Source: Deltaproteobacteria bacterium
Lineage (GTDB): Bacteria; Desulfobacterota; Deferrisomatia; Deferrisomatales; JACRMM01
Length of the DNA stretch: 64,000 nucleotides
Direction: 5' to 3'
Assembly (NCBI GenBank): GCA_016214985.1
Contig: JACRMM010000048.1
Coordinates: 1 to 64,000 of the forward strand
Shown here: piece by piece, positions 14,147-37,764 of the stretch
Position numbering within the stretch: position 1 is the stretch's first letter
How the letters are laid out: the number at the start of each line of letters is the position of its first letter
Notes under the pieces: generated by a model
Database searches by the model: none
What the model was told of the DNA's origin: nothing
Seen by the model: only the letters and a program-made list of their open reading frames with translations
Program-made: the position numbers and the translations under genes

Positions 14147-14148
14147 GT

Positions 14149-14212
14149 GCCGAGTTCCGAGTTCCGAGTTCCGAGTTCCGAGTTCCGGGTGCCGGGTGCC
14201 GGGTGCCGAGTG
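14149..14212 (-). repeat. Heptamer array, 3' side of four-helix-bundle cassette A
   Basis: Units of GTTCCGA on the plus strand repeat about five times and then change to GGGTGCC-type units. It lies between the four-helix-bundle gene A and the formyltransferase ATG. The opposite side of gene A (about 14633-14664) carries the reverse-complement unit (GGAAC-type), so the gene sits between inverted arrays. Confidence 0.85.
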
Positions 14213-14219
14213 CTGCAGG

Positions 14220-14585
14220 CTACTTCGGTTTAGGATTGTTTCTCAAATAGCGGAGGAAGCCGTTGAGCAAGCCTTTGACGTTGTCGCATCTCTCGCAAAG
14301 AACCTGGAACTGATTTCCGCTCAAATAGCCGAGGTCCAGGCCTACATAGCCGAGGCTCTTGACTTCCGCCGCGGAGCCCCGGGCCACGATCAGGAACTGC
14401 GAGAGCTCCCGTCGGCTTTCCCGGCCGAAGCCCTCTGCGATATTCGTCATCACCGAGACAGCGGCTCGCTGGATCTGGTCGCGAAAACCGAAGTCCCGGC
14501 TCTCGCGAAACGCACCGTAGACCTCTTTCACTAGTTCTCTGGCTTCCTTCCAGGAGTCCAGGTCTTCAAAGCGATCGATGCGCAT
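14220..14585 (-). CDS. Four-helix-bundle protein of the 23S rRNA intervening-sequence (S23) family, copy A
   Basis: A 121-residue all-helical protein. The family signature is at about residues 38-55 (QIQRAAVSVMTNIAEGFGR), preceded by 'DLDSWKEARELVKEVY' and followed by 'RGSAAEVKSLGYVGLDLGYL'. Relatives are encoded in intervening sequences of Leptospira and Coxiella 23S rRNA, and the Avd protein of diversity-generating retroelements belongs to the same fold. Function is unknown. It is the most diverged of three copies in this window. It is flanked by inverted GTTCC/GGAAC arrays and has been placed between the GT2 gene and the formyltransferase gene. Confidence 0.88.
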   Translation of the reverse strand: MRIDRFEDLDSWKEARELVKEVYGAFRESRDFGFRDQIQRAAVSVMTNIAEGFGRESRRELSQFLIVARGSAAEVKSLGYVGLDLGYLSGNQFQVLCERCDNVKGLLNGFLRYLRNNPKPK

Positions 14586-14587
14586 GT

Positions 14588-14664
14588 CTAATTCCGGCGC
14601 CGGGTACCGGTGATTGCGGTTTGCCGGTCAACTTGGAACATGGCACTCGGAACCTGGAACATTC
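14588..14664 (-). repeat. Degenerate heptamer array, 5' side of four-helix-bundle cassette A
   Basis: Contains CTTGGAACATGGCACTCGG and further GGAACCTGGAAC units, which are reverse complements of the GTTCC units at 14149-14212. It ends close to the stop codon of the GT2 gene. The array is more decayed than its partner. Confidence 0.6.
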
Positions 14665-19153: not shown

Positions 19154-20206
19154 TCAAGAGCCAGGCTTCTCTGGGGCGTGTGCCGCCACTCTCGAGTCCT
19201 CCGGCACAAGCCGTTGCCTCGCGTACTGCACCATGTCCGGATTCTCGGGGGTCGAGACCTTCTCCCGGCCCTCCTCGCGCGTCATCACTCCCACCCTGAC
19301 CATGTTCGCGATCTCCCAGGCGTAGGGGTGGAAGTCGTAGCGGTCCTTGTGAACCTGATTGGCGAAGGCGTTCAAGAGGCAGTTGGTGGAGTTGGGGTCC
19401 GTGTCGTCGGGTTTCTCCCAGCCGAGCTCCCGGTTTCGCGCGATCACACGGTCTTCATTGTAGTCGAGGAAGGCGAGCGGATGCACGTTCCACGGGAAGC
19501 GTTCCGCCATGCCGAACTGCTCTTCGGTCACGAAATAGGGAGTCACGGCGTCGCCCGCGATCGCGTGAAGAGGCTCGTAGATCGCCTTCTGCGTCGCACG
19601 CGCCATGGCCGGGTTGGTCTTCATCACCGAGGACTGGACCGGCGCCTGACCCGGGGACCAGCCGAATCCGACAAACGGGATCTGCTTCTCGATCGCAGTC
19701 CGGAGGACCACGGCCTTCACGAGGCCGATGCAGCTCGTGCAGATGGTGCTCGCCCGCTCGAGGGTCTTTGGGGAATAGAGCTCCCGCTGTGACGCTTCGC
19801 GAAAGATCTTTCTCAACATGTTGGCGGCGGGGCGGATGATCATGTGATCGGCGCCGAGTTTGCCGCACACCCTCTGCATGTTCACAAAGGACTGGGGAGA
19901 CACGAACGTGTTGTCGAAGGTCAGGGCGAGCACGCGAAGACCGTATCGGTTGACGAACACGTCGAGCGTGTAGGTGCTGTCCTTGCCCCCGCTGTAGGCC
20001 ATGAGGACGTCGTAGGACAAAGGCCTGCGGTGGGTCGCCAGCAGGTCGACGAACTTCTTCTCGTACTCGGCCTTCTGCCCCGCGAGAACCGCGTCTCCCT
20101 TGTAGGAGCGGCAGAAGTTGCACGTGCCGGCATCATCGAAGGAGATGCCGGGGAAGGTGGATGGAAGGACGCAGCGGGTGCAGAGAGTCATGGTGGGCCT
20201 GTTCAT
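19154..20206 (-). CDS. PP-loop ATP-pyrophosphatase, N-acetyl-sugar amidotransferase-like
   Basis: A 350-residue enzyme with an N-terminal zinc-type Cys cluster (C9, C12, C29, C32 in 'LCTRCVLP' and 'GTCNFC') and a PP-loop SGGKDS at residues 72-77, followed by a 'CTSC' pair near residue 155. This architecture matches the WbpG/PseA-like group that adenylates a substrate carbonyl and transfers an amine or similar group to an acetamido sugar. In this locus it sits beside an asparagine-synthetase-like amidotransferase, an acyl carrier protein and an AMP ligase, so a decorated amide-bearing sugar or small molecule is plausible. Substrate unknown. An ATG at 20191 is an alternative start. Confidence 0.75.
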   Translation of the reverse strand: MNRPTMTLCTRCVLPSTFPGISFDDAGTCNFCRSYKGDAVLAGQKAEYEKKFVDLLATHRRPLSYDVLMAYSGGKDSTYTLDVFVNRYGLRVLALTFDNTFVSPQSFVNMQRVCGKLGADHMIIRPAANMLRKIFREASQRELYSPKTLERASTICTSCIGLVKAVVLRTAIEKQIPFVGFGWSPGQAPVQSSVMKTNPAMARATQKAIYEPLHAIAGDAVTPYFVTEEQFGMAERFPWNVHPLAFLDYNEDRVIARNRELGWEKPDDTDPNSTNCLLNAFANQVHKDRYDFHPYAWEIANMVRVGVMTREEGREKVSTPENPDMVQYARQRLVPEDSRVAAHAPEKPGS

Positions 20207-20211
20207 GGCGA

Positions 20212-20287
20212 GAGTTCAGGTGAGTTCCCAGTTCCCAGTTCCCAGTTCAGGTTCCGAGTTCCGAGTTGCAGGTTTGCAGTTCCGGGT
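20212..20287 (-). repeat. Heptamer array between the PP-loop enzyme and the AMP ligase
   Basis: Units of GTTCCCA (three in a row) followed by GTTCCGA and GTTTGCA variants on the plus strand. It reaches the stop codon of the AMP ligase (20287). Solo array, same orientation throughout. Confidence 0.85.
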
Positions 20288-21858
20288 CACTTCAGATCGA
20301 CTTTCCGGATCTTGCCCGTATCGGTCTTCGGAAGCTCGTCCAGGAACTCGATCACCTGCGGAACCTTGTAGGCCGGGAGCTCTTTGCGGCAGTGCCGGAG
20401 GAGCTCCTTTTCGCCGCAGGAGGCGGCTACCTTGAGAACGACGCAGGCCTTGATCGCCTCTCCGAGGATGTCGTGGGGCACCCCGAGCACCGCGGCCTCG
20501 TGGACCGCGGGGTGCTCGAGGAGGACGTCTTCGATCTCCTTGGGCCCGACCCGGTGGGCCCCGCTCTTGATCAGCTCGCTCTTGCGGCTGACGATGTAGA
20601 GGTACCCCTCCTCGTCGACCGTCGCGAGGTCGCCGGTGCGCAGGCCCTCGGGCCCCAGGACCTCGGCGGTCGCCCCGGGCTGCCCCCAGTAGCCGGCCAT
20701 GAGGTTGGGGCCCCGGGCCACGATCTCCCCGACCTCGCCCACGCCCGCCGGCTCGCCCGAGGCCTTGAGGACACTGAGCGTGACGCCGGGGATCGCCTTG
20801 CCGATGGAGCCGGCCTTGCGCAGCAGATCCCCGGGGTCGAGATACGACAGGCGCGCCGACGCCTCGGTCTGTCCGTACATGATGTAGATCGCCGTGCCGG
20901 GCAGGACTTCGCGGACCTCTCGGGCCAGGCTCGGGGCCATGGCGCCGCCGGCCTGGGTCGCGTACCGCAGATCCGGGAAGCGGTAGTTGCGGATCGCCGA
21001 GCGGTGGAGCAGCAGGGCGTAGGTGGAGGGCACCCCCGAGAAGCCCGTAACGCGCTCCGCCTGCATCTGGTCCAGGACGACGTTGGGGTAGAGGAAGCTC
21101 TGGTTGACCACCAGAGTGCCCCCCACGGCCATGTGGGTGAGGAGCACGGAGTTCCCGTAGGAGTAGAAGAACGGGAGCACCGCCATGACCCGGTCCCGCT
21201 CCGTGAGCCGAAGATACTCCACGATGGAGGCCGTGTTGGCCACCAGATTCGAGTGGCGGAGCATGACACCCTTGGGCTCGCCGGTGGTTCCCGAGGTGTA
21301 GATGATCTGCGCGAGGTCTTCCGGGTTCCAGGTTCGGAGTTCCGAGTTCCGAGTTCCGAGTTCCGAATCAGGACATGGAACACGGAACCTGGAGTTGGGA
21401 ACAAGTTTCTCTCGGAGCACCTCTTCCAGGCTTGCGACGAACGCCGGTGCTCCCTCCAACCCGGATGTCCCTCCCGCCACGGCAAGGCGGCGGAGCGCGG
21501 GGGTTGTGGAGAGGATCGGCCCGACGTATTTCCAGAGTTTCCGGTGGGTGAACAGGCGTGAGACGCCGCAATCGTTCAGGATTCCGCCGAGGGTCCGCGC
21601 CGAGGTCTGGGTGTTCAGCGCGACGACGACTCCGCCGCTCAGGAGTGCCCCAAAATAGCAGGAAACATAATCCACCGGATCGTCGAGCAAGATACCTACG
21701 CGGTCACCCGGCTGGAGCCCGGCGGCGGCGAGCCAGCCCGCCACACCGCGCGCGGCGTCGGCGAGTTCCCGGTAGGTGATCCTCCGCCCGGCGGCGACGA
21801 TCGCCTCCTTATCGGGACACCGCCCGGCGGAACGCAGAAGGAAGTCGCAAACCATCAT
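20287..21858 (-). CDS. AMP-dependent acyl ligase (exosortase-A associated), with an in-frame repeat insertion
   Basis: A 523-residue ANL-superfamily enzyme that should activate a carboxylic acid as acyl-AMP and load it onto the adjacent carrier protein. It has 'YTSGTTGEPKG' (A3, residues 187-197), 'YGQTEAS' (A5), 'LRTGDLATVDEEGYLYIVSR' (A7/A8) and 'TDTGKIRK' with the catalytic Lys near residue 516. Residues about 152-178 (VPNSRFRVPCPDSELGTR and following) are the in-frame translation of a palindromic heptamer array placed just before the A3 loop. Homologues usually lack such an extension there. The start at 21858 or the next Met is supported by similarity at 'FLLRSAGRCPDKEAI'. Confidence 0.88.
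   Translation of the reverse strand: MMVCDFLLRSAGRCPDKEAIVAAGRRITYRELADAARGVAGWLAAAGLQPGDRVGILLDDPVDYVSCYFGALLSGGVVVALNTQTSARTLGGILNDCGVSRLFTHRKLWKYVGPILSTTPALRRLAVAGGTSGLEGAPAFVASLEEVLREKLVPNSRFRVPCPDSELGTRNSELRTWNPEDLAQIIYTSGTTGEPKGVMLRHSNLVANTASIVEYLRLTERDRVMAVLPFFYSYGNSVLLTHMAVGGTLVVNQSFLYPNVVLDQMQAERVTGFSGVPSTYALLLHRSAIRNYRFPDLRYATQAGGAMAPSLAREVREVLPGTAIYIMYGQTEASARLSYLDPGDLLRKAGSIGKAIPGVTLSVLKASGEPAGVGEVGEIVARGPNLMAGYWGQPGATAEVLGPEGLRTGDLATVDEEGYLYIVSRKSELIKSGAHRVGPKEIEDVLLEHPAVHEAAVLGVPHDILGEAIKACVVLKVAASCGEKELLRHCRKELPAYKVPQVIEFLDELPKTDTGKIRKVDLK
21323..21402 (-). repeat. Palindromic heptamer pair inside the AMP ligase reading frame
   Basis: Left arm 21323-21365 is GTTCC-type (GAGTTCCGAGTTCCGAG); right arm 21377-21402 is GGAAC-type. 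TCCAGGTTC in the left arm and GAACCTGGA in the right arm are perfect complements, so the RNA can form a hairpin with a loop of about eleven bases plus slack. No stop codon is introduced into the ligase frame. Confidence 0.85.
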
Positions 21859-21868
21859 GGTCCGTTTC

Positions 21869-22114
21869 TCAGCCCGTCTTTCGCCCGACGAAGCTCGCCA
21901 GGCGGTTCACGCTATCGAGATTCTCGGGGACCAATTCCTCGTCGTCAACACGGAAGCCGAAGGTCTCCTCGATCCAGCCCACCAATTCCAGGACGCCCGT
22001 GGAGTCGATGATGCCCTTCTCCAGGAAGGAATCGTCATCATTTAGAGCGCTCTCGTCGGCGTCGAAGAGGAAGCTGTCGAAGATGAATTTCCGAACTTGA
22101 GAGATGATGTCCAT
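21869..22114 (-). CDS. Acyl carrier protein
   Basis: An 81-residue acidic, four-helix carrier protein. The phosphopantetheine site is Ser38 in 'GIIDSTGVLEL', with the usual D-S pair, and the third helix holds 'VDDEELVPENLDSVNRLASF'. The ATG at 22114 gives the normal ACP length; a longer frame upstream only adds translated repeat sequence. It lies ten bases before the AMP ligase, which presumably charges it, and after an asparagine-synthetase-like gene. This trio is standard in exosortase-A exopolysaccharide loci. The acyl group carried is unknown. Confidence 0.9.
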   Translation of the reverse strand: MDIISQVRKFIFDSFLFDADESALNDDDSFLEKGIIDSTGVLELVGWIEETFGFRVDDEELVPENLDSVNRLASFVGRKTG

Positions 22115-22130
22115 GCGGTCTCCATGTCGC

Positions 22131-22265
22131 GAGTTCCAAGTTCGAAGTTCCGAGATCCGAGTCAATATCGTTCGATCTGGTCACAAGATCTCTTGCTGTC
22201 GATCAACATCGAACGTCGAACCTCGAACTTCGAACGCGTCAGCGAATCAACATCGAACCTCGAAC
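22131..22265 (-). repeat. Palindromic heptamer pair at the 3' end of the amidotransferase gene
   Basis: Left arm 22131-22154 (GAGTTCCAAGTTCGAAG) and right arm 22207-22265 (units NTCGAAC, at least six) are inverted relative to each other. The right arm covers the last codons and stop of the asparagine-synthetase-like gene, so its final residues (VRGSMLIR) are repeat-encoded. Confidence 0.8.
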
Positions 22266-24176
22266 AAACTGGTCATAGACAATCTGCGTAGACAGGATTC
22301 CCACGAAGGCCATGTTTTCCATGAAGCCCTGCCTCTGGCCTTTCCTGCACTTGTTGAGCAACTGCGCGACGGCCTGGGGTCTGAAGAGGCCCGCCTCCTC
22401 CAGTAATTCCTTCGAGAGGTAGTGGTTCAGATACTCCGGCGCGTCGTCGCCGAAGAAGCTGAAGATGTCGGGGGCCATGTATGGCTGCTTCTTCCGTCGA
22501 ACGATGGAGGCGGGCAGGAGGTCCTGGACCGCCTTCTTCAGCACGTTCTTCTCGTTGAGCCCCCGCATCCGGAAGCGAGGAGGAACCGTGCAGGCGAACT
22601 CGACGACGCGATGGTCGAGGAACGGGAAACGCCCCTCCACGGAGTGGGCCATCGCCATACGATCGCCCTGGGAGGACAGCAGATACCCCGGCAAGAGGAG
22701 CTTCGTCTCCAGGTATTGGGCTCGAGTAAAGTAATCGGCATTTCGAAGCTTCTCCTCAAGGTTCGCGAGCAGGCGTTCCTCGGGCTGCCCCTGCATCCGA
22801 GCTTCAACCTCGGGGGAGAAGAAGGTGCGCGTGCGGGCAGTCGTCTTCCAGCGCGGACGGTGCGCGTAGAAGGGGTCCGAGTCGACCGGAACCTCTGTGT
22901 CGAAGAAGGCGCGCGCGTAGTCACTCGACTTGGTAGGTGAGAGCGCCAAGTAAGGATACAGACGCCGGAGGAGGAGCGCCCGAAAGGACGATCCCGGCTT
23001 CTTTTGGACGAAGGCCCGGATCTTGGCTTCCTTGAAGAGGTCGTAGCCCCCCAGAATCTCGTCGGAACCCTCGCCGGTGAGCACGACCTTGTACCCGTTG
23101 TCGCGCACGAGGCCCGACAGGAGAAAGAGCGGGGCCGGAGCAGTCCGCAGAATCGGCGTCTCCGCGTGCCAGACTACGTTGGGGAAGGCCTCGGCGATCC
23201 CGCGGTAGGTGCAATGAACCGCGTGGTGGTCGGTCCCCAGGTGGTCCACGACCTGCCCCTGCTCGCGGCTCTCGTCGTAGACGCCGTCCGCAAAGGTCAC
23301 GGAGAAGGTCTTGAGCGGGTTGTCAGTGTAGTGGCGGACCAGGGCGGTAATGGCGGAAGAATCGAGCCCGCCGCTCAGGTAGGCTCCCACGGGCACGTCC
23401 GCCCGAAGCTGCAGGCGGACCGAGTCGATCAGAAGCTCCCGGAGCTCCTCGGCGTAGTCCTGCTCGGTGCGACGGCCGACGGGATGGGCGGCCGCGAGAG
23501 GGACGTCCCAGTACTCTTCCTCGGCGAACCGGCCACCGGCGTCCACCCGCGCCCAATGGCCCGGCGCCAGCTGCCGCACGCCTCGAAAGATCGTGTCGCG
23601 GCCGGCGGGCATCCAGAAGGTGAAGATCTCGCCGAGGACGTCGGGGTCGATTGCGCGGGGGATCCGGGGTTCCGCCGCAAAGATCGCCTTGACCTCCGAC
23701 GCAAAGTAGAATCGCCCGTCGTGGAACGTGTAGAAGAGCGGGCGGATTCCAAGCCGGTCCCGGGCCAGATAGAGGCTGCGGTCCCGGCGATCATACACCG
23801 CGATCGCGAACTGCCCGTTGAGGTCCTCAATGCACCTCTCCCGCTTCTCCTCGTAAAGGTGGACGATCACCTCCGTGTCGGAGTGAGACGAGAAGCGGTG
23901 CCCCCTGGACTCCAGTTCGGCTCGGAGCTCGACATAATTGAAGATCTCGCCGTTGAAGATGACGGCTAGCGTCTTGTCCTCGTTGAAGATCGGCTGCCAA
24001 CCGCCCTCCAGGTCAATGATGCTGAGCCGCGCGTGTGCCAGCCCGACCCCGCCTTCGGCCAGAAAGCCATAGCCGTCCGGACCTCGGTGTCGAAGGGCGC
24101 CCACCATCCGCTGGAGCGTGGTCTTCTCCACCGGGAGACGGTCGGCAATGTTCAGGATTCCCGAGATTCCGCACAT
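22239..24176 (-). CDS. asnB: Asparagine-synthetase-like amidotransferase (exosortase-A associated)
   Basis: A 645-residue glutamine-dependent amidotransferase. The N-terminal Ntn glutaminase domain begins with catalytic Cys2 (MCGISGIL) and has 'RHRGPDGYG' and 'FNGEIFNY'. The C-terminal synthetase domain has the PP-loop 'YLSGGLDSSAI' and 'LTGEGSDEILGGYD'. It should transfer glutamine-derived ammonia to an AMP-activated carboxylate. Given its neighbours (ACP, AMP ligase), the acceptor may be a sugar acid or a carrier-bound acid rather than aspartate. The last ten or so codons run into a TCGAAC heptamer array and have probably been replaced by it. The ATG is fixed by the need for Cys at position 2. 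Confidence 0.9.
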   Translation of the reverse strand: MCGISGILNIADRLPVEKTTLQRMVGALRHRGPDGYGFLAEGGVGLAHARLSIIDLEGGWQPIFNEDKTLAVIFNGEIFNYVELRAELESRGHRFSSHSDTEVIVHLYEEKRERCIEDLNGQFAIAVYDRRDRSLYLARDRLGIRPLFYTFHDGRFYFASEVKAIFAAEPRIPRAIDPDVLGEIFTFWMPAGRDTIFRGVRQLAPGHWARVDAGGRFAEEEYWDVPLAAAHPVGRRTEQDYAEELRELLIDSVRLQLRADVPVGAYLSGGLDSSAITALVRHYTDNPLKTFSVTFADGVYDESREQGQVVDHLGTDHHAVHCTYRGIAEAFPNVVWHAETPILRTAPAPLFLLSGLVRDNGYKVVLTGEGSDEILGGYDLFKEAKIRAFVQKKPGSSFRALLLRRLYPYLALSPTKSSDYARAFFDTEVPVDSDPFYAHRPRWKTTARTRTFFSPEVEARMQGQPEERLLANLEEKLRNADYFTRAQYLETKLLLPGYLLSSQGDRMAMAHSVEGRFPFLDHRVVEFACTVPPRFRMRGLNEKNVLKKAVQDLLPASIVRRKKQPYMAPDIFSFFGDDAPEYLNHYLSKELLEEAGLFRPQAVAQLLNKCRKGQRQGFMENMAFVGILSTQIVYDQFVRGSMLIR

Positions 24177-24282: not shown

Positions 24283-25395
24283 TCAGAACGAGAAGTCCCT
24301 CAGCAACCGGGCGGGTCGACCCTCGGTCCTCGCCCGAGCGAGATCGCCGGCCTCGCGGCTGGGACGCTCGGGACACGACACGACGTCTCTCATTGAGGCA
24401 AATGCGAACTCTGTCAAGAGCCGGCGCAAGCGCGCCTCGGTCCGGTCCAGGTTCACATAGTGTCGGAATCTGCTCTTCAACCCAGCGCCGCAGATCCTTG
24501 GCTGTTTCGGGTCGATTTCCCAAGGATGCAGGTAGAAGACGAATGGGCGTCGGTCCGTCCGATTGATCCTCCGGAGGCCCCAGCGCGTCAGCCGGTACGG
24601 GAACAGACGGAAGTAGCCACCGCCGGCGATGGGGAAGTTTCTTCCCGCGAGCCGCAAAGTCGTAATGGGTATCTCCAACAACCTAGGCGGCTCGTGGGCG
24701 CTAGGCGGCTGGGCGGCTGGCGCGTTAGGCAGCAGGTCCGGATTGGGCCGCCTCGCCGCCTCGCCGCCTCGCTGCCCAACGTCCCCGCCTTCAGCGGGAA
24801 CCCAATTCCCCCCTTCCAACCTCTCCACGCGGAACGGAAACCTCGGCCAGTCGGGCAGGCCATAGAGGTCGTGGCGGATCGGGAAGACGCTCGAGTCGTA
24901 GACGTAGCCAGCCTCCAGGAGCTCGTCGAACGCCCAGAGAGTCAGGGCCGAGATCGAATAGCTCGGCGCCCGGTAGCCCAGGACCTGCTGCCCGCCGAGG
25001 TCTTCGAGGAGAACCTTCGCTCGGCGAACATCTTCTCGGAACTCCTCGCGCGTCTGGGTGTACACCCGCCGGTGTCCGTACCCGTGGCTCGCGATCTCGT
25101 GGCCCCCGGCCTCGATCTCCTTGACCAGACCGGGGCAACGCTCGGCCACCCAGCCGAGGACGAAGAACGTGGCCGTGACACCCTGCTCTGCGAGCATTGA
25201 GAGGATCTTACGCGTATTGGCTTCAACGCGAAGCTCCCTCCCATCCCAAGTATCCAGCGCCGAAACCGACTCAAACGCAGAAACGTGGAAATAATCTTCG
25301 ACGTCGATGGTAAGGGCGTTGACGATCGCCGGCGGCTGGGTGGTTGGGCGGCTGGGTCGAGACGCCGCTGGGCGGCTCGGCGGTCTGAGGTTCAC
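24283..25395 (-). CDS. Exosortase-A system polysaccharide deacetylase (NodB plus DUF3473-type), with in-frame repeat insertions
   Basis: A 370-residue deacetylase of the XrtA type. Signature segments: 'NALTIDVEDYFHVSAFE', 'TATFFVLGWVAERCP', 'EIASHGYGHRRV' (metal His pair), 'GYRAPSYSI', 'YDSSVFPIRHDLYG' and, after the domain end, 'IPITTLRLAGRNFPIAGGG' and 'FYLHPWEID'. Residues about 204-238 are a translated GC-rich repeat pair interrupting the normal link before 'LLEIPITT'. The N-terminal 23 or so residues (VNLRPPSRPAASRPSRP) are also repeat. The start is GTG at 25395, overlapping the four-helix-bundle B stop (GTGA). Homologues begin directly at 'NALTIDVEDYF'. Catalytic motifs are intact, so it may still work. 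Confidence 0.85.
   Translation of the reverse strand: MNLRPPSRPAASRPSRPTTQPPAIVNALTIDVEDYFHVSAFESVSALDTWDGRELRVEANTRKILSMLAEQGVTATFFVLGWVAERCPGLVKEIEAGGHEIASHGYGHRRVYTQTREEFREDVRRAKVLLEDLGGQQVLGYRAPSYSISALTLWAFDELLEAGYVYDSSVFPIRHDLYGLPDWPRFPFRVERLEGGNWVPAEGGDVGQRGGEAARRPNPDLLPNAPAAQPPSAHEPPRLLEIPITTLRLAGRNFPIAGGGYFRLFPYRLTRWGLRRINRTDRRPFVFYLHPWEIDPKQPRICGAGLKSRFRHYVNLDRTEARLRRLLTEFAFASMRDVVSCPERPSREAGDLARARTEGRPARLLRDFSF
24683..24783 (-). repeat. Palindromic octamer pair inside the deacetylase reading frame
   Basis: Left arm (about 24683-24722) carries AGGCGGCT/GGGCGGCT units; right arm (about 24747-24778) carries GCCGCCTC units. The arms are roughly complementary and the whole is translated without a stop as an Ala/Pro/Gly/Arg-rich insertion. 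Confidence 0.8.
25329..25387 (-). repeat. Octamer array, 3' side of four-helix-bundle cassette B
   Basis: Plus-strand GGCGGCTG/GGTGGTTG-type units, running into the deacetylase N-terminal codons on the minus strand. The opposite side of the cassette (25811-25836) holds the reverse-complement unit. Confidence 0.85.
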
Positions 25396-25757
25396 TTGGA
25401 CCTCACCGCCTGATAGAACGACCATAGTTTTGCGCCCACTCCATCGCTCGCCTGATCGAGGGCGACGTAGTCGTCCTGGCTCAGATATCCCAGGCTGTGG
25501 GCAAAGTGGAGTAGGTACTTAACCTCGGCTAACGATCCGATGCTGATGTTCAGGAACTGGATCAGCTCTTTCTCCCCTTTGCGTGAGTACCCTTCTACGA
25601 TGTTTGTGGGGACAGACAAAGCAGCACGCCTCAGCTGACCGGGGGTAAGGCCATAGCGCTCTTCTTTCGGAAACGTCTCGGCAGCCCGATACACGGTCCG
25701 CGCCAACCCATCCGAAAAACTCCAGACTTCGAGCTTCCGCCACCGTTCGTTCGCCAT
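25392..25757 (-). CDS. Four-helix-bundle protein of the 23S rRNA intervening-sequence (S23) family, copy B
   Basis: A 121-residue helical protein with the family core 'QLRRAALSVPTNIVEGYSRK' (about residues 42-61), 'FLNISIGSLAEVKYLLHFAH' and an N-terminal 'RKLEVWSFSDGLARTVY'. It is closely similar to copy C at 28.4 kb. It lies between inverted octamer arrays. Upstream, the second wecB copy stops being recognisable exactly at the array; downstream, its TGA overlaps the deacetylase GTG. It therefore occupies the place where the epimerase C-terminal half would be expected. Function unknown. Confidence 0.9.
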   Translation of the reverse strand: MANERWRKLEVWSFSDGLARTVYRAAETFPKEERYGLTPGQLRRAALSVPTNIVEGYSRKGEKELIQFLNISIGSLAEVKYLLHFAHSLGYLSQDDYVALDQASDGVGAKLWSFYQAVRSK

Positions 25758-25810
25758 GCGTCGCTTCGCTCCGCGCTGGTCCGCTCGGCGGCTTGACTGC
25801 GAGGCTGTCT

Positions 25811-25836
25811 AACCGCCCAACCGCCCAACCGCCCAA
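25811..25836 (-). repeat. Octamer array, 5' side of four-helix-bundle cassette B
   Basis: Three perfect units of AACCGCCC/CCGCCCAA on the plus strand, abutting the last recognisable codon of the broken wecB. It is inverted relative to 25329-25387. Confidence 0.9.
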
Positions 25837-26361
25837 GGTTGTCGATCATCACGTGGCCGACCAAGTGGATCATCGCCGGGCTCTTCCCCTCCCGCAGAAG
25901 GTTCGCGACGCCGCTCTCCTCCGTTACAAAGAAGTCGTCGGAGATGGCATCGGTCACCATGCGGTTGATCTCCTCGGGCATGGCGAGATCGAAGCTCCGG
26001 AGCCCCGCCTCCACGTGGTCCACCCGGATGCCGAGCTTCTTCGCCACGACGCTGCACGCGAGCGTCGAGTTGACGTCGCCGACGACCACGACCGCGTCCG
26101 GCTTCTCTTCGAGGCACACCGGCTCGAAAGCGACCATGATCCGCGCCGTCTGCGCCGCGTGGGACCCGGAGCCCGCGTTCAGGAACCGGTGGGGCGCCGG
26201 CAGGCCCAGATCGTCGAAAAAGGCCTGCGACATTTCCCGGTCGTAGTGCTGGCCCGTGTGCACGATGCGGCACTCCACCTCGGGGTGCCGCAGCGCCTCG
26301 CGGTAGATCGGCGCGATCTTCATGAAGTTCGGCCGCGCGCCGGCATGAGAAGAACTTTCAC
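25837..26361 (-). pseudogene. wecB: Broken UDP-N-acetylglucosamine 2-epimerase (frameshift at the start, C-terminal half missing)
   Basis: A GTG at 26361 with a GGAG upstream opens MKVLLM, after which the frame shifts: one base fewer than needed gives P-A-R-G-R-T-S-stop. In the next frame the epimerase continues as 'AGARPNFMKIAPIYREAL', 'HTGQHYDREMS', 'VVGDVNSTLA', 'DHVEAGLRSFD' and 'HLVGHVMIDNL', about 175 residues. It then runs straight into an octamer array. The second half, with the TDSGGIQEE motif, is absent. It belongs to the epimerase subtype usual in exosortase-A loci and differs from the intact copy at 2.2-3.3 kb. The frameshift could be a sequencing error; the truncation could not. 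Confidence 0.88.
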
Positions 26362-26379
26362 GCTCAACTCCGTTTCGAT

Positions 26380-26462
26380 CGCTGGGCAGCTGGGCCGTGG
26401 GGCTGCTGGGCTGCTGGGCTGTCCGGCCGCCTCGCCGCCTCGCCGCCCAGCCGCCAGGCCAC
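26380..26462 (-). repeat. Palindromic octamer pair between broken wecB and the GspE-like gene
   Basis: Left arm about 26380-26417 (GGCTGCTGGGCTGCTGGG) and right arm about 26425-26462 (CCGCCTCGCCGCCTCG) are approximately complementary with a very short loop. No reading frame of interest is enclosed. Confidence 0.75.
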
Positions 26463-26467
26463 CTCAC

Positions 26468-28159
26468 CTACTTTATCCCCCTCACCTCTTCGTACGTCGT
26501 CATCCCCTCCACCGCCTTGACGAAGCCGTCTTCGAGGAGCGTTCGGAAGCCAGTGGAGTGGGACTCCTTCTCCAACTCCTCCTGGGAAGCGCCGGCGACG
26601 ATGAGGTTTCGAAGCTGGTCGTCGGGTACGAGGAGCTCGAAGATGCCCAAACGGCCTCGGTAGCCGGTCATGCCACAGGTCCGGCACCCGACGGCCCGGT
26701 AGAGTCGCGGGTTCTCCTTGCCGGTCGCCCGGCGAAGCTCGTCCTTCACCGGCTCGGGCGGCTCGAAGGACTCGAGGCACGACGGGCACAGGCGCCGCAC
26801 CAAGCGCTGCCCCACGACCGCGGCGAGCGCCGAGTAGAGCATGAAGGGCGGGATCCCCTGCTCCAGGATCCGCGGGATCGACCCGATGGTGTGGTTGAAG
26901 ACCATGCGGGCGAGCACCAGGGTCTTCCCCAGCGCTGCCTCGACGGCGATGCCGAGCACCTCGGGGTCGGAGACGTCGCCCACCATCAGGTAGTCCACGT
27001 CCTGACGGATCAGCGCCTTCAGCCCCTGCGCATAGCCGATGCCGGCTCGCTCGTTCGGCTCTGCCTGGTTGATGTCGGAGAGCCGGTTCTTGATCGGGTT
27101 CTCGTAGCTGACCGTCGCCTTGGAGGATCGCTTGAGTTGGTTCAGCGTCGCATAAATCGTGGAGGTCTTGCCACTGTCCGGCGGACCAAGCACGAGGATC
27201 AATCCGCGCTGGGCCTGTATGATCCGCTGGAACCGCTCGGACATCTCCGGCGCCATGCCGAGGTTCTCGAGGCGGAGCTCTTCCTTCGAGAACGGCTGCT
27301 GGAAGGTGAGCACAGCCTGCTCGCCGTTGAGCACTGGGAAGGTGGCCACGTCGATGTCGTAGAACTGGTCTTCGGAGCGGACCCGGAAGTACCCCTGAAG
27401 GGGGATTCGCCGCTTGAGGATGTCCATGCCCCCGAGGATCTTCAGCCGGTTGACGAGGTTCTGGCTGTACTCCTTGGGCGGCGTGACGAGGGACTCCAGG
27501 AGCCCGTTCACCCGGAGCTTCACCTCCACCGACTCCTCGCCCGGAACGATGTGGACGTGGGTCGCCTTCTTGTCCAGGGCTGCGAGGATCACCGAATTGA
27601 TGATCTTGACGATCGGCGCCTCGGAGGCGGACTCGATCACCTCCTCGAGGTTCTCCTCCACCACAGCGCCCTGGGGACTGATGATCTCGAGATCGCGCTG
27701 GGCCTTGAGGTCGAGGGCCTCCTCCCACTTCGTCGTCGCCGGGAAGAGGTCGCGGAGCTTTCGCTTGATGCCGAACATCGAGGTGACGACCGGCGCGATC
27801 CGCAGGCCCGTCATGAATCGGAGCTCGTCGATGACCCGATAGTCGTGGGGGTTGGCCATGGCGACCGTGAGGGTCTTCTCGTGGACCTCGATCGGGAGCA
27901 CGAAGTTCTTCTTCATGAACTTCTCAGGAACGAGATTCACCGTCTCGGGAGCAATCGCGTACTTCTGGAGGCTGATCGCCGGCACCGACTGCTGCCGGGA
28001 GAGCAGGTACTCGAAGTCCTCGACCGTCACGTACCCCTTGCGGATCAGGACACTGCCCAGTCGCTCGCCGGACTTCTTCTGCTCCGCCACCGCCTCGGCC
28101 AACTGATCGTCGGCGACGAGTTTGTATTCCAGGAGGAGTTCGCCGATCTTTTTGGCCAT
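26468..28159 (-). CDS. GspE/PilB-like ATPase of the exosortase-A locus, with degenerate catalytic motifs
   Basis: A 563-residue protein with an N-terminal MshEN-like domain (about residues 1-150), a GspE N2 domain and a RecA-like ATPase. Walker A is GPPDSGKT (325-332), complete. Other motifs deviate: the Asp-box SDIHIEP is THVHIVP, the usual VEDPVE is SYENPIK, Walker B MVGE(I)RD is MVGDVSD (388-398), and the His-box ST(L)HTND is ARMVFNHT (about 416-424). The zinc-binding Cys pairs (CPSC, CRTC) are kept. GspE-like proteins normally power type II secretion or pili. Here it is more likely a regulatory or weak ATPase. The ATG at 28159 (MAKKIGELLLEY) fits homologues. Confidence 0.85.
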   Translation of the reverse strand: MAKKIGELLLEYKLVADDQLAEAVAEQKKSGERLGSVLIRKGYVTVEDFEYLLSRQQSVPAISLQKYAIAPETVNLVPEKFMKKNFVLPIEVHEKTLTVAMANPHDYRVIDELRFMTGLRIAPVVTSMFGIKRKLRDLFPATTKWEEALDLKAQRDLEIISPQGAVVEENLEEVIESASEAPIVKIINSVILAALDKKATHVHIVPGEESVEVKLRVNGLLESLVTPPKEYSQNLVNRLKILGGMDILKRRIPLQGYFRVRSEDQFYDIDVATFPVLNGEQAVLTFQQPFSKEELRLENLGMAPEMSERFQRIIQAQRGLILVLGPPDSGKTSTIYATLNQLKRSSKATVSYENPIKNRLSDINQAEPNERAGIGYAQGLKALIRQDVDYLMVGDVSDPEVLGIAVEAALGKTLVLARMVFNHTIGSIPRILEQGIPPFMLYSALAAVVGQRLVRRLCPSCLESFEPPEPVKDELRRATGKENPRLYRAVGCRTCGMTGYRGRLGIFELLVPDDQLRNLIVAGASQEELEKESHSTGFRTLLEDGFVKAVEGMTTYEEVRGIK

Positions 28160-28173
28160 GGGGAGGAACCTCG

Positions 28174-28318
28174 TTAGAGAGCTGGAAAGCTCGGAAGCGG
28201 GAAAGCTCAAAACAGCTAGAAAGCGAGCCAGCTAGAAAGCTAGAAAGCTAAAAACAGCTCGCAAGCGAGCAAGTTAGAAACAGCTCAAAAGCTGGCATGT
28301 TAGAAAGCTCAAGACAGC
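28174..28318 (-). repeat. Degenerate octamer array, 3' side of four-helix-bundle cassette C
   Basis: Plus-strand units of GCTAGAAA/GCTGGAAA/GCTCAAAA type, with CAGCTAGAAAGCTAGAAAGC at the core. It runs from near the GspE-like start codon to about 90 bases short of gene C. It is inverted relative to the array at 28777-28887. Confidence 0.85.
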
Positions 28319-28410
28319 CGTGACACTGGAAACCATCAGTCGGTTAGCTCTTACATCCAGTGATATGGGCCCTAAGTTTTTATTAATAATTCTACAGCAA
28401 CAACAAGGCC

Positions 28411-28776
28411 TCATACACTGCGAGCGATTTTGCCATAGAACGACCACAACATCCTGCCTAGTTCGTTGTATCGCCCTATCATTTCTTCATAGTCAACGTC
28501 ACATAGGTAGCCGATTCGGTGCACAAAATGCAACAAATACTTCACTTCAGCTAGTGAACCTAAGCTGATGTTCACAAAATGCCGGAGTTCTCGATCCCCT
28601 CTTCGTCCATATCCTTCTACGATATTCGTCGGAATCGACAACGCAGCCCGTCTCAGTTGGGACGTGGCGCCATACGCTTCTGCCCGTGGAAAGGATCGGG
28701 TGACTTCATAGACTCGACATGCGAGATCGTCAGCGACCCGCCAGACATCGAGCTTCACCCACCGATCCTGAATCAT
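28411..28776 (-). CDS. Four-helix-bundle protein of the 23S rRNA intervening-sequence (S23) family, copy C
   Basis: A 121-residue helical protein with 'VKLDVWRVADDLACRVYE' at the N-terminus, the core 'QLRRAALSIPTNIVEGYGRR', and 'FVNISLGSLAEVKYLLHFVH'. It is near-identical in layout to copy B and less like copy A. It is noticeably AT-richer than the neighbouring ATPase genes, which suggests recent arrival. Its ATG directly follows a TTTCC-type octamer array. The 90 bases behind its stop (28319-28410) are AT-rich and hold nothing recognisable. Confidence 0.9.
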   Translation of the reverse strand: MIQDRWVKLDVWRVADDLACRVYEVTRSFPRAEAYGATSQLRRAALSIPTNIVEGYGRRGDRELRHFVNISLGSLAEVKYLLHFVHRIGYLCDVDYEEMIGRYNELGRMLWSFYGKIARSV

Positions 28777-28887
28777 GCTTCCAGCTTCCTAGCTTTCCAT
28801 CTTTCCAGCTTCCTAGCTTTCCATCTTTCCAGCTTTCCATCTTTCCAGCTTTCCAGCCTCCTAGCCTCCTAGCCTCCTAGCTTCCTC
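28777..28887 (-). repeat. Octamer array, 5' side of four-helix-bundle cassette C
   Basis: Plus-strand units CTTTCCAG, CTTTCCAT and TAGCTTCC, then TAGCCTCC three times (CTAGCCTCCTAGCCTCCTAG). The ExeA-like ATPase stop codon (28861-28863) lies inside it, so the last residues of that protein (EEARRLGG) are repeat-encoded. Confidence 0.9.
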
Positions 28888-30501
28888 GCCTCTCTCAACA
28901 AACGTCCCAAAAAACGCCTCGTACTGCTTCTTCACCCCTTCGATTACCCGCAGGAGATCCGCCGTCAGGTGTTCCATGGCGTCGCGATGTGTGGTGAAGG
29001 AACCGGCGCGCCCGTTGGGCTTTTCCAGGAAGTAATTGGCGCCGGCGGCGAAGATCCGTCTCCTCAGGGTGGAGAGATCCAGGTCGCTCAGGTAGATGCG
29101 GGGCACGTGGGGGAGCTCCTCGGAGATCCGCGCGACCCTCTCCACATTGGACGAGTCGTCCTGCTCGGCGCCCAGTACCGCCACCGTGAACCACCCCGAA
29201 CGGCTGCCGTCTCGGAGGGCCTCGGAAAAGGCTCGATAGTCCCGGTGGACCTCGGCGTCGATCCGGCTCGCCTCGAAGGCCTCGGCCAGGGCATTCTGAA
29301 TTCGAGGGTCCGGGTCGTAGGCGTGCACCCGCAGGGCAGGGAAGCGGACCGCGCCGCCCACGGTCTCTCTCCGCACCCGCTCGAGCTGATCCAGGCGCTT
29401 CTTCCACTCGCCCTTGAGCTGGGTCACGCGCTCCCTGAACTCCTCCTCGCGCTTTTCGACATCGGCGACCCGGCGCGCCACCTCGAGCTCGCGGGACCTC
29501 AGGTCGCCCTCCTTCTTGGCGAGGTACCCCGCTCTCTCGGCCGTGCGACCCGGTCCAGGTCCGGGGACCGGCTCCCGGACCGCCTGAACCGTCACGGAGT
29601 CGAACCGCGCCTCAAGGGCGGCAACCTTCGCCCGAAGCTCTGCGTCCGCGTCTCGGGTCGCCGGCTCCGGGGGCGGCGCCTTCCCCTGCTGGTCCCGGGA
29701 GATCTGCGCCGCGACCTCAGCCACGATCGCATCGCCGATGATCCGCGTCTCGGCCACGTAGGCGTGAAGGAGCGCCGCATCACACAAGACGTTGATGAGG
29801 CGAGGAATGCCGCCGGTGGCCACGTGGATCGCGGGAATCACCTCCTCGGGGAAGACCGGCGCCTTCTCGGGATCCCGGCATACTTTGGAGAGGCGGTGGC
29901 GGACGTACTCGGCGACCTCCCCCGGCGTAAGGGCCCCCAGGTGATACCGGACCGTGGTGCGCTGCCGCAACTGCTCGAGCTCCGGGGACTCGATGAGGGT
30001 TCGCAGCCCCGGCTGTCCCACGAGGATGATGTGGAGGAGCTTCGCCTTCTCAGTCTCGAGGTTCGAGAGCATCCGCACGCCCTCGAGGCTCGACACGCCC
30101 AGGTCTTGCGCCTCGTCCACGAGGAGCACGCAGCTTCGCCCCTCGCGGAACCGCTCGATCAGGAAGTCGTTCAGGTTGGAGAGGAGAGAGGCCGTGCCGA
30201 GCCCCTCGGCGGTGAGCCCGAAATCTCGGAGGATCAGCTCAAGAAGCTCTTTGTAGGACACGTGGGTGTTGGTGACCTGGCTCAGCACCACGTTGTCCCC
30301 GAGGTTCGCGATCAGCGCGCGAAGCAGCGTCGTCTTCCCGGAGCCAACCTCTCCCGTGATCATGACGAACCCGCTCTTCGCCTCCACCCCGTACGTCAGG
30401 TGCGCCAACGCCTCCCGGTGCCCCCGGCTCAGGTACAGGAAGTCCGGGTCCGGCGTCAGGTTGAACGGCTTTTCGGAAAGGTCGAAGAACTTACGGTACA
30501 T
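28861..30501 (-). CDS. ExeA-like AAA ATPase of the exosortase-A locus, with a C-terminal receiver-like domain
   Basis: A 546-residue protein. Residues 1-270 form the ExeA/GspA-type ATPase: 'MYRKFFDLSEKPFNLTPDP', Walker A 'GEVGSGKTT' (50-58), Walker B 'CVLLVDEAQD' (124-133) and 'LVGQPGLR'. A long charged coiled coil spans about 290-395. Residues about 400-520 look like a response-regulator-type fold ('LRVHAYDPDPRIQNALAEAF', then 'FLEKP' near the end), but the phospho-acceptor position reads VAVLGAE, without the Asp. It probably organises the export machinery. The start at 30501 matches the family; the frame upstream is repeat sequence. The C-terminus ends within an octamer array. Confidence 0.87.
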   Translation of the reverse strand: MYRKFFDLSEKPFNLTPDPDFLYLSRGHREALAHLTYGVEAKSGFVMITGEVGSGKTTLLRALIANLGDNVVLSQVTNTHVSYKELLELILRDFGLTAEGLGTASLLSNLNDFLIERFREGRSCVLLVDEAQDLGVSSLEGVRMLSNLETEKAKLLHIILVGQPGLRTLIESPELEQLRQRTTVRYHLGALTPGEVAEYVRHRLSKVCRDPEKAPVFPEEVIPAIHVATGGIPRLINVLCDAALLHAYVAETRIIGDAIVAEVAAQISRDQQGKAPPPEPATRDADAELRAKVAALEARFDSVTVQAVREPVPGPGPGRTAERAGYLAKKEGDLRSRELEVARRVADVEKREEEFRERVTQLKGEWKKRLDQLERVRRETVGGAVRFPALRVHAYDPDPRIQNALAEAFEASRIDAEVHRDYRAFSEALRDGSRSGWFTVAVLGAEQDDSSNVERVARISEELPHVPRIYLSDLDLSTLRRRIFAAGANYFLEKPNGRAGSFTTHRDAMEHLTADLLRVIEGVKKQYEAFFGTFVERGEEARRLGG

Positions 30502-30508
30502 AAGAGTT

Positions 30509-30536
30509 CCCAGTTCAGGGTTCCGACTTCCCAGTT
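30509..30536 (-). repeat. Short heptamer array upstream of the ExeA-like ATPase
   Basis: Plus-strand GTTCCCA and GTTCCGA-like units directly before the first copy of the 57-bp element. Confidence 0.65.
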
Positions 30537-30593
30537 TATCCCCAGGATGGGGTGTATCCCGCGGGCCCATGGACGGGCAGGAGCGGGGCCCAG
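30537..30593. repeat. 57-bp dispersed element, copy 1
   Basis: Starts TATCCCCAGGATGGGG and ends GGGGCCCAG. The same 57 bases occur at 32381-32437 with a single mismatch. Internal complementarity (CCCC/GGGG and two GGGCCC hexamers) allows two small hairpins. It is embedded between a heptamer and an octamer array. Confidence 0.9.
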
Positions 30594-30620
30594 TGTCGAG
30601 TTCCAAGTTCAGCGGTGCCA

Positions 30621-30753
30621 GCCTTCTAGCCTTCTAGCCTTCTAGCCTTCTAGCCTTCTAGCCTTCTAGCCTTCTAGCCTTCTAGCCTTCTAGCCTTCTA
30701 GCCTTCTAGCCTTCTAGCCCTCTAGCGTACTAGCGTCCTAGCGTCCTAGCTTT
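30621..30753 (-). repeat. Octamer array with twelve perfect units
   Basis: GCCTTCTA repeats perfectly twelve times (30621-30716), then decays (GCCCTCTA, GCGTACTA, GCGTCCTA) up to the TAG stop of the sugar transferase gene at 30754-30756. The perfection of the core suggests recent expansion. Confidence 0.95.
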
Positions 30754-32142
30754 CTACCTCCCCTTCCCGAACAACACTACCTTCACCGTCTCGAAGATGA
30801 TGCTGAGATCCATCCAGAAGCCCATCCTCTTGATGTAGTAGAGGTCGTAGCGGAGCTTCTCGAGAGCGTCTTCGACGGTGGAACCGTAGCTGTACTTAAC
30901 CTGGGCGAGGCCGGTGACGCCAGGCCTGACGGAGTGGCGCTCAATGTAGTATGGAACTTGAGCCGCCAGCTGGTCCACGAAGAACGGCCGCTCCGGCCGG
31001 GGTCCCACGAAGCTCATCTCTCCTCGGAAGACGCTGATGAGCTGGGGGATCTCGTCGATCCGGGTCTTTCGGATAAAGCTCCCTACCCTCGTCACCCTCG
31101 GATCCTGCTCGGCGGCCCAGACGGGCCCGGTCGAGGTCTCGGCGTCCTGACACATCGAGCGGAACTTGAGGACTTCGAAGATGCGGCCGCCCTTGCCTAC
31201 CCGCTCCTGCCGGAAGAACACCGGTCCGGGCGAGTCGAGCTTGATCAGGAGGGGAAAGACCGCCCAGACCGGCAGGGCCACGATCATGCCCACGCCGCTG
31301 GCCAGGAAGTCGACAAGACGCTTCAGGAGCACGGTCAGGCGCCGCTTCGAGAAGCCGTCGGAGAAGATGAGGTCGCTCGGCTTCAAGTACTCCACGAGCA
31401 TGCGGCCGGCGAGCTGCTCGTAGCAGGCGCAGCCATCCTCCACCCGACACCCCGAGAGCCGAAGCTCGAGGAGCTCGCGGACCGGGAACTTGCCCCTGCG
31501 CTCCGCGATCGCCACGACCACCCGGTCCACGTCGGCTCGGCGACCGTGGCGTAGAATCTCGTCGAACCCCCCAAGGATCGGCGGCAGCCCCTCCGGGGTG
31601 GCCGCCGCGATAGCCGGATCGGCGGCAAGGCAGCCGACCACTTGGAACCCGAGCGTCCTTCGAGTCAGTGACTCGCCGTACACCTTGCGTGCCAGGTCTC
31701 CGGCCCCGACCAGGAGGATTCGCACCGAGAGCCCACGACTCGACAAGACGGCGGCGTAAGCGACCCGCCAGAGGACGACCACACCGAGGCCGATCGCGAC
31801 GAAGAGGAGGAACACCCCCCGCCCCAGAATCAAACTCGGGTAAACGTAGTACAAAAGCGCGAGCGCGATGCTCGCAATCCCCATCCCCTTGAGCAGACCG
31901 ATGAACAGCTCCCGGCGGCTGTTGAGGGCCTGGGGCTCGTAGAGGTCCGTGTAGTAGAACGAGAGCTGGGTGATGCTGACGACCAGGGCCATACGCAGCC
32001 CTTGACCGGGCTCCCGGAGTACGGTCCCCACCTCGGGGCCGAAGCGCACCGCCATGGCGGCCAGAAGGGCCAGGAGCACGATCCCCCCCTCCGAGACCAG
32101 CAAGGTCAGGTGGCGGGCTGTGATCGTGCGGCGAAGGGGCAT
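30754..32142 (-). CDS. epsB: Undecaprenyl-phosphate sugar phosphotransferase, exosortase-A type (EpsB)
   Basis: A 462-residue polyisoprenyl-phosphate sugar-1-phosphate transferase that starts repeat-unit synthesis on undecaprenyl phosphate. Four N-terminal membrane helices (about residues 10-130) precede a Rossmann-like CoA-binding domain ('RILLVGAGDLARKVYGE'). A fifth membrane segment ('FLASGVGMIVALPVWAVFPLL') follows. The catalytic domain has 'KLDSPGPVFFRQERVGKGG', 'FEVLKFRSM', 'RKTRIDEIPQLISVFRGEMS' and 'FVGPRPERP'. All catalytic residues are present. The gene is bracketed by two copies of a 57-bp element and by three tandem-repeat arrays. Confidence 0.93.
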   Translation of the reverse strand: MPLRRTITARHLTLLVSEGGIVLLALLAAMAVRFGPEVGTVLREPGQGLRMALVVSITQLSFYYTDLYEPQALNSRRELFIGLLKGMGIASIALALLYYVYPSLILGRGVFLLFVAIGLGVVVLWRVAYAAVLSSRGLSVRILLVGAGDLARKVYGESLTRRTLGFQVVGCLAADPAIAAATPEGLPPILGGFDEILRHGRRADVDRVVVAIAERRGKFPVRELLELRLSGCRVEDGCACYEQLAGRMLVEYLKPSDLIFSDGFSKRRLTVLLKRLVDFLASGVGMIVALPVWAVFPLLIKLDSPGPVFFRQERVGKGGRIFEVLKFRSMCQDAETSTGPVWAAEQDPRVTRVGSFIRKTRIDEIPQLISVFRGEMSFVGPRPERPFFVDQLAAQVPYYIERHSVRPGVTGLAQVKYSYGSTVEDALEKLRYDLYYIKRMGFWMDLSIIFETVKVVLFGKGR

Positions 32143-32150
32143 GGGAGCGT

Positions 32151-32232
32151 TGGGCGGCTAGGCGGCTAGGCGGCTAGGCCGCTGGGCCGCTGGGCCGCTG
32201 GGCCGCTGGGCCGCTGGGCCGCTGGGCCGCCG
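32151..32232 (-). repeat. GC-rich octamer array upstream of the sugar transferase gene
   Basis: AGGCGGCT repeats about three times, then switches to GGCCGCTG repeated about six times. It begins nine bases before the sugar transferase ATG (32142), so it covers the place where a leader and part of a ribosome-binding site would be. Confidence 0.9.
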
Positions 32233-32283
32233 AACCCCGAATCAGATCTCGGTGCGTTGCTCTCATGATCGCTTCCTCGCTGT

Positions 32284-32380
32284 TTCCGGGTTCCCAGTTC
32301 CCAGTTCCCAGTTCCCAGTTCCCAGTTCCGAGTTCTAGGATCCAGCATCCTAGCTTCCTAGCTTCCCAGCTTCCTAGCCT
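32284..32380 (-). repeat. Heptamer array followed by octamer array
   Basis: GTTCCCA repeats five times with one GTTCCGA (32284-32337); then TAGCTTCC/CAGCTTCC units (32347-32380) lead into the second 57-bp element. Confidence 0.9.
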
Positions 32381-32437
32381 TATCCCCAGGATGGGGTGTA
32401 TCCCGCGGGCCCACGGACGGGCAGGAGCGGGGCCCAG
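32381..32437. repeat. 57-bp dispersed element, copy 2
   Basis: Identical to 30537-30593 except for one C/T difference at the GGGCCCAYGG position. It is followed by CCTCCCAGCTTTCTAGC, in which the TAG stop of the tyrosine kinase gene lies. Confidence 0.9.
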
Positions 32438-32449
32438 CCTCCCAGCTTT

Positions 32450-33349
32450 CTAGCGCTGCTTCGGCTTCGCCTCCTCGTACGAGCTGTAGTAGTAATACCC
32501 CTTCTTGTACGAGTAACCGTGTCCCGGCTCTTCGGCCCGGTTTAGGATCGTCCCGAGCACCTTGCCGGGCGGCAGCGATTCCGCCGACTGCTGGACCATG
32601 TGCTTCAGGGTCTTGCCGGCACGGATGACCATGAGAACTCCATCGACGAATTCCACCAGGAAGTTAACATCGCTGATGGGGTGAATCGGGGGCGTGTCGA
32701 CGATCACATAGTCGAAACGGCCGCGGGCTGCGGCCAGGAACGCCGCGAACTCCGGGCTGGCGAGGAGCTCCGCCGGGTGGCCCTCGGCGTTGCCCGCGGT
32801 GACCACCTGGAGGCCGAAGAAGGGCGTGCGCCGCACAATGTCCTCTTCCGAGGCGGCGCCCTGCAGGTAGTCGGACAACCCGGGAGAGAGGGGGAGGTCC
32901 AAGAGGGCGTGGACGTTCGGTCTCCGAAAATCCGCGTCGACGAGCAAGACGTCACGGTTTGCATTCCCGGCCATGACCAGCGCGAGGTTCACGGCCGTCA
33001 CGCTCTTCCCTTCGCCCTTGACCGCGCTGGTAATCGCCAGAACCTGCGCGGTGGTCGTTGCATTGAGCCGCTCCAGGCGACTGCGGAGCGATCGATACTG
33101 CTCCACGACGACGGACCGCGGCTCGCGGAGCGCGAAGATGCGAGAATCGACGCCCTGCACCGCCCGTGGATCGAGCGTCACAGCCTCCCGCAAGATGGGT
33201 GCCCCATTGCGCTTCCGGCGCTCGGGGCCCTTTCCGCCCTCGCTCCCGTCCGCTGGGGCATGGCGGCCCCGCTCCTCCAGAGCAACCGTCGTGCTCTCGA
33301 GGATGCCCTCTCGCTTGGCCTTCTCCAACGCCTCGATGATCTTGCTCAT
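32450..33349 (-). CDS. Exosortase-A associated tyrosine autokinase (BY-kinase)
   Basis: A 299-residue cytoplasmic tyrosine kinase of the CpsD/Wzc type. Motifs: Walker A in 'ITSAVKGEGKSVTAVNLAL', Walker A' 'VLLVDADFRRPN', Walker B 'YVIVDTPP', and a tyrosine cluster at the C-terminus (GYSYKKGYYYYSSY) that would be autophosphorylated. The N-terminal 'MSKIIEALEKAKRE' is the typical start of this subfamily. It should pair with the Wzz protein encoded 19 bases upstream and control chain length and export by phosphorylation cycles. The TAG stop lies at the edge of a TTTCTAGC repeat, so the last residues may be altered. Confidence 0.92.
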   Translation of the reverse strand: MSKIIEALEKAKREGILESTTVALEERGRHAPADGSEGGKGPERRKRNGAPILREAVTLDPRAVQGVDSRIFALREPRSVVVEQYRSLRSRLERLNATTTAQVLAITSAVKGEGKSVTAVNLALVMAGNANRDVLLVDADFRRPNVHALLDLPLSPGLSDYLQGAASEEDIVRRTPFFGLQVVTAGNAEGHPAELLASPEFAAFLAAARGRFDYVIVDTPPIHPISDVNFLVEFVDGVLMVIRAGKTLKHMVQQSAESLPPGKVLGTILNRAEEPGHGYSYKKGYYYYSSYEEAKPKQR

Positions 33350-33368
33350 CCGTAAGCTCGGCTCCTCT

Positions 33369-35117: not shown

Positions 35118-35189
35118 GACCTTATCTTCGCTCAGGGTTGGAATTGGCTCACGCGCCGACGAGACAGTGCGGGAATTCTCCCCTCTCTT

Positions 35190-37587: not shown

Positions 37588-37608
37588 TGAGAATCCTCTC
37601 TTCAGGAT

Positions 37609-37633: not shown

Positions 37634-37680
37634 AATGATCATCCGTAGGTAGTTGCTGGTTCTCAGTCAGATTCAGTTTG

Positions 37681-37751: not shown

Positions 37752-37764
37752 TCCCCCCTTCCCC

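Follow-up and report, generated by a model that had tools for sequence, protein, structure and literature searches.

Why should a palindromic array of heptamers be translated in the middle of an adenylating enzyme, and what is such an array? The question is raised by one gene in a 64,000-nucleotide stretch of a Deltaproteobacteria contig (the window), an open reading frame of 523 residues (20287-21858, minus strand) encoding an AMP-forming ligase. The protein has the AMP-binding and C-terminal domains (PF00501 and PF13193) and the intact core motifs that define ANL adenylating enzymes; its scores against TIGR03098, the nearest exosortase-associated model, lie under that model's cut-off. Every invariant position of a 34-sequence alignment is present in it, including T188-S189-G190 of A3 and K516, with A3 starting at Y187, which confirms that the catalytic motifs are intact, as stated in the first-pass annotation. 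Its central observation, a palindromic heptamer array translated inside the ligase, is also real, but the array spans 21319-21402 and 28 residues rather than starting at 21323 and covering 27. The features are as follows.

20287-21858, minus strand: AMP-forming acyl/aryl ligase (ANL family) in an exosortase-type polysaccharide cluster; PF00501 1e-84, PF13193 1.9e-23; intact, 523 aa
21319-21402, unstranded: palindromic heptamer array of 84 nt, ligase residues 153-180
21319-21366, plus strand: left arm of the array, seven GTTCNNN-type units, mostly GTTCCGA (read from the sequence)
21375-21402, minus strand: right arm, with four units in inverted orientation, ATGGAAC ACGGAAC CTGGAGT TGGGAAC (read from the sequence)

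The arms are arranged head-to-head around an 8-nt loop, ATCAGGAC, end six residues before motif A3, and are translated in frame as VPNSRFRVPCPDSELGTRNSELRTWNPE, the 84 nt giving 28 codons with no stop and no change of frame, just as originally claimed. The 18-mer GTTCCGAGTTCCGAGTTC, allowing up to two mismatches, has 55 matches in this genome and its reversed control one, so the ligase array is not a product of chance. Elsewhere in the phylum, CCTTGAN units, the reversed pattern, form heptamer arrays commonly enough that this pattern cannot serve as a neutral control.

That the array is open calls for little explanation. A tandem heptamer encodes the identical heptapeptide in each of three frames, and since ~69% of all possible heptamers are stop-free on one given strand (50% on both), an open frame through the ligase array is expected and unremarkable. 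Keeping the frame across it requires just a length divisible by three, a one-in-three event. An enrichment of stop-free units in genes reached only p 0.07, and we therefore make no such claim. A seven-nucleotide unit does not fit a whole number of codons, so that a single unit gained or lost would break the ligase frame.

How the enzyme accommodates the array is best seen in its homologues, in which the stretch aligned to ligase residues 126-205 ranges from 49 to 80 residues. The first-pass annotation spoke of about 27 residues of repeat-derived peptide, and array residues are indeed there, but the ligase, with 80 residues in this stretch, has a net gain of only ~14-15 over a typical close homologue. 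Since the array itself accounts for 28, ~13 linker residues have been replaced or lost. An equally long insertion in homologues without arrays, named at the outset as counter-evidence, does occur in two of them (L036 and L037), which are distant (43-44% identity), whereas the ten closest (55-59% identity) are all shorter, at 50-67 residues. An AlphaFold2 model built from the alignment has a mean pLDDT of 89.8 and falls below 50 only at 154-158 and 161-174, so that residues 154-174 are predicted to be the sole disordered stretch of the protein. Length variation and predicted disorder together suggest that the linker is hypervariable and that the array forms a disordered loop within it. This agrees with the earlier proposal that the enzyme tolerates the loop, the gene being intact and disorder being confined, in an otherwise confident model, to the array. 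Most likely, the array is passively read through as a tolerated loop, in a ligase that is presumably active.

The nature of the array is suggested by its surroundings. Arrays of period 7 or 8 number 17 in the window, whereas unselected stretches amounting to 1.18 Mb have 12, and, one period-24 protein repeat excepted, these periods and their multiples are the only ones in the window. Of the six PF05635 (23S_rRNA_IVP) genes in the genome, three also lie here, each adjoining arrays.

14147-14213, plus strand: left arm of an IVP element, GTTCCGA and GTGCCGA/GTGCCGG units
14220-14585, minus strand: IVP/S23 four-helix-bundle protein gene inside the element 14147-14660; PF05635 5e-30, TIGR02436 9e-28
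14633-14660, minus strand: right inverted arm of that element, TTGGAAC ATGGCAC TCGGAAC CTGGAAC (read from the sequence)
20223-20284, plus strand: GTTCCCA/GTTCCGA array, lying between the ligase stop and the next operon gene
22130-22236, unstranded: second palindromic GTTC-heptamer array, between acyl-carrier and asparagine-synthase-like genes; fold -54.7 kcal/mol, z -2.3
25392-25757, minus strand: third IVP gene, adjoining an octamer array (25811-25836)
28411-28776, minus strand: second IVP gene, with inverted octamer arrays on either side (28187-28306, 28783-28892)

The ligase array and the IVP element at 14147-14660, 7 kb away, have the GTTCCGA unit and the order of the arms in common; the ligase array thus consists of facing 7-mer arms built on the unit of an ORF-bearing element in its own genome. 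It has the inverted, hairpin-forming ends of a 23S rRNA intervening sequence (IVS) but no S23p/IVP ORF, its 8-nt loop being all that lies between the arms. The common unit and arm order make an ORF-less member of the IVP element family the best reading of it. We consider it probable that the ligase array is an ORF-less hairpin relative of an IVP (S23) insertion element, simply translated as a tolerated loop.

Some further observations in the window concern the same repeats. A WecB-type UDP-GlcNAc epimerase-like ORF (25631-26467) appears truncated at the octamer array beside the third IVP gene, and the C terminus of the asparagine-synthase-like gene continues into repeat-like sequence (22239-22290). 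Between operon genes at 28187-37754 there are octamer arrays (AGCTTCCT, AGCCTTCT and GGGCCGCT), most with stops in every frame; those octamer arrays that include TAG were ruled out as examples of translated arrays.

The association of IVP genes with heptamer arrays extends well beyond this genome. Of 28 IVP loci in a phylum-level discovery set, two of them from the present genome, 18 have a 7/8-mer array within 700 bp, as has one of 29 control genes (kinship was ignored in the association tests). Arrays were again found within 250 bp at 17 of 25 further loci, on both sides at 11. In this second set, 28 of 35 arrays have period 7 (multiples not counted), and the flanks are inverted, with a median score of 21 vs 10 for direct orientation (p 0.0025). 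Arrays of 7-mers on both sides occur at 16 of 45 IVP genes and at none of 45 positions 850-1100 bp away. Among the genomes sampled (G000-G246), IVP is carried by 33 of 39 in which one or other of two heptamer patterns occurs and by 82 of the other 208, kinship again being ignored; six genomes with heptamer arrays have no strong IVP match, and arrays are much more numerous than IVP genes. On named plasmids, mostly from Cyanobacteriota, 14 of 15 IVP loci have arrays, mostly as inverted pairs, and three cyanobacterial plasmid loci place the IVP gene within a CRISPR-cas operon (L312, L315 and L322; cas10-cmr3 and cas6-cas4). Phages yielded no IVP gene, viral contigs none that was confirmed, and 20 IVP loci no rRNA match. 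One IVP locus (L236) is adjoined by Acido-Lenti-1 RNA matches as an inverted pair, at 2562-2606 (minus) and 2762-2806 (plus). Another genome, G049 (L298-L310), contains 11 almost identical copies of a palindromic element of ~90 bp that is bounded by GTAACTAYTCAGGTT; these termini are its own and fixed, and it was left out of the evidence. Most arrays at the loci of G004 and G049 are one-directional, hence a scan of these loci for facing arrays enclosing the IVP gene was uninformative.

That arms and gene travel together is apparent from plasmids in which the same site is found occupied and empty. Trichormus variabilis plasmid C differs from Nostoc linckia plasmid2 (L318/L328) by a 428-bp insertion consisting of arm, ORF and arm, flanked on each side by GTAAT, which the empty site has as a single copy. 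Nostoc ATCC 53789 pNsp_a differs from C052 pC052_B (L321/L332) by 417 bp, with TTCTA at both sides and single when empty, and pNsp_c differs from pC052_B (L317/L332) by a clean 506-bp insertion; at several occupied/empty pairs the junctions are not clean. Arm, ORF and arm are a discrete insertion of 417-506 bp, and these insertions sit at stop/start junctions of operon genes. One site exists in three states, with the full element in Nostoc C052 (L314), an ORF-less heptamer hairpin in Nostoc ATCC 53789 (L327) and neither in C057, and in another plasmid (L329) the element has decayed to a single arm and a partial ORF. Occupied and empty forms are thus seen for ORF-bearing elements on plasmids and not at the ligase site, where even the best orthologues (59-62% identity) are too distant to provide an empty site and the array has no clear target duplication; the insertion into the ligase gene is thus inferred.

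Taken together, this suggests how the ligase may have come by its loop. A full element would comprise a heptamer array, an IVP gene and an inverted heptamer array, usually at junctions of operon genes, and since the IVP gene is constantly placed between the arms, its protein may take part in the mobility of the element. The ligase copy would retain just the two facing arms, in the linker ahead of A3; with a unit that is stop-free in any frame and 84 nt that keep the frame, it would yield a disordered loop that the enzyme tolerates. Tentatively, and with rather less assurance, we propose that the IVP/S23 four-helix-bundle gene and its inverted heptamer arms together make up a transposable element, widespread and with no recognised transposase, and that many dispersed heptamer repeats of bacteria, including translated ones such as the ligase array, are its ORF-less offspring or footprints; this broader idea could well be right, but we would not give it even chances.

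The majority of arrays in this genome, surveyed as stretches totalling 1.63 Mb, are intergenic, and the ligase array is not the only one translated. The XrtA-type polysaccharide deacetylase (24283-25425, TIGR03006) contains an in-frame octamer array, GCCGCCTC, and has ~42 residues more than the model, and RecD (L137:8437-11844) has a translated heptamer array, GTGTGNRERGTGN, in a linker whose net length is unchanged. Our codon-usage gene caller often picked antisense ORFs in this GC-rich genome, and each array within a gene was checked again on either strand, whereupon three candidates (L126, L165 and the plus-strand ORF 25793-28177) were dropped. In contig C27 heptamer arrays lie within two similar PIN-DegT aminotransferase genes (copy 1, L127:8153-9463; copy 2, L127:10300-11994). 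Copy 2 is in frame and carries two arrays; in copy 1 the 70 nt that make up the second array (10 units) are missing, and the first is longer by 49 nt (7 units), an excess that breaks the frame. Third codon positions account for 30 of 41 differences between the copies where the frame is broken and for 23 of 34 where it is not, and this persisting bias indicates that the break is either recent or an assembly error. Gain or loss of units could in this way break the frame of a host gene, as apparently in copy 1.

The difference in unit number between the DegT copies would also be expected if the array were an ordinary simple-sequence repeat that grew in place when slippage multiplied a heptamer in a tolerant linker, with IVP genes lying merely where repeats are common; heptameric repeats are over-represented in many bacteria (PMC4692102). 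We find this unlikely because slippage does not make inverted arms, because arms and IVP ORF arrive together as a single insertion, and because both-sided arrays are absent 1 kb from IVP genes. Array length might instead be under selection as a frame-based on/off switch for the ligase, which would make it a contingency locus like neuO of E. coli K1. A 7-nt unit shifts the frame at every gain or loss, surface-polysaccharide genes are typical targets of such loci, and the frame-breaking 49-nt difference in the DegT copy has come with little decay. However, the ligase units are degenerate, with only about four perfect copies, the length of its array is known from one assembly, the prevalence of intergenic arrays does not fit, and faulty assembly could account for the DegT frameshift, all of which makes a switch distinctly improbable. 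Removal of the hairpin from the ligase mRNA before translation, the other option of the first-pass annotation, can be virtually discounted: RNase III does cut related hairpins out of 23S rRNA (PMC4990558), but without ligation (PMC11270868, PMC4990558), so that an mRNA would be split in two, the mRNA-strand hairpin is only moderately stable (-38 kcal/mol, z -2.1), Rfam has no match in 20200-22400 up to E 1 and the array no conserved RNA core of group I or II introns, and the ligase frame is intact without any removal.

A translated, ORF-less relative of an IVP element therefore remains our preferred reading of the ligase array. More generally, heptamer arrays emerge as the inverted ends of an element that carries an IVP gene and has occupied and empty sites, which opens the role of IVP, a common protein of unknown function, to direct tests. 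Elements of this type can add loops to host enzymes or break their frames.

Comparison with known systems highlights both similarities and differences. In neuO of E. coli K1, 7-nt repeats in a coding gene serve a frame-switching mechanism; the ligase array is instead a dispersed palindromic element placed mid-protein, whose phase variation would be hypothetical. MITE and REP elements are likewise short, palindromic, non-coding and dispersed, but the IVP element differs in having degenerate 7-mer arrays as arms and a partner ORF that encodes a four-helix bundle and no known transposase. The TAACTGA repeats of Beggiatoaceae and others (PMC4679880) are dispersed heptamer arrays, mainly intergenic with some translated in ORFs; their unit is different and their orientation direct, whereas ours are inverted, and the text of that report does not mention IVP, S23 or four-helix proteins. 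The GGGNATC heptamers of Xanthomonas and Nostoc (PMC4692102) are similarly abundant, with an intergenic bias, but are explained by G-quadruplexes in a report whose abstract and introduction do not connect them with an insertion element. A further parallel is the 23S rRNA IVS of Coxiella burnetii, in which tandem heptamers (GACAGAT) precede the S23p ORF in numbers that vary by strain (PMC4990558), the only report linking IVP/S23 genes to heptamer arrays that our search of the largely open-access literature found. The ligase array differs from an IVS in lying in a protein gene and lacking an ORF, as do the 20 IVP loci in having no rRNA match, yet IVS and heptamer-armed IVP elements are alike in placing an IVP/S23 ORF within a hairpin with inverted ends, and the present data join two old puzzles, the over-represented heptameric repeats and the intervening sequences of 23S rRNA.
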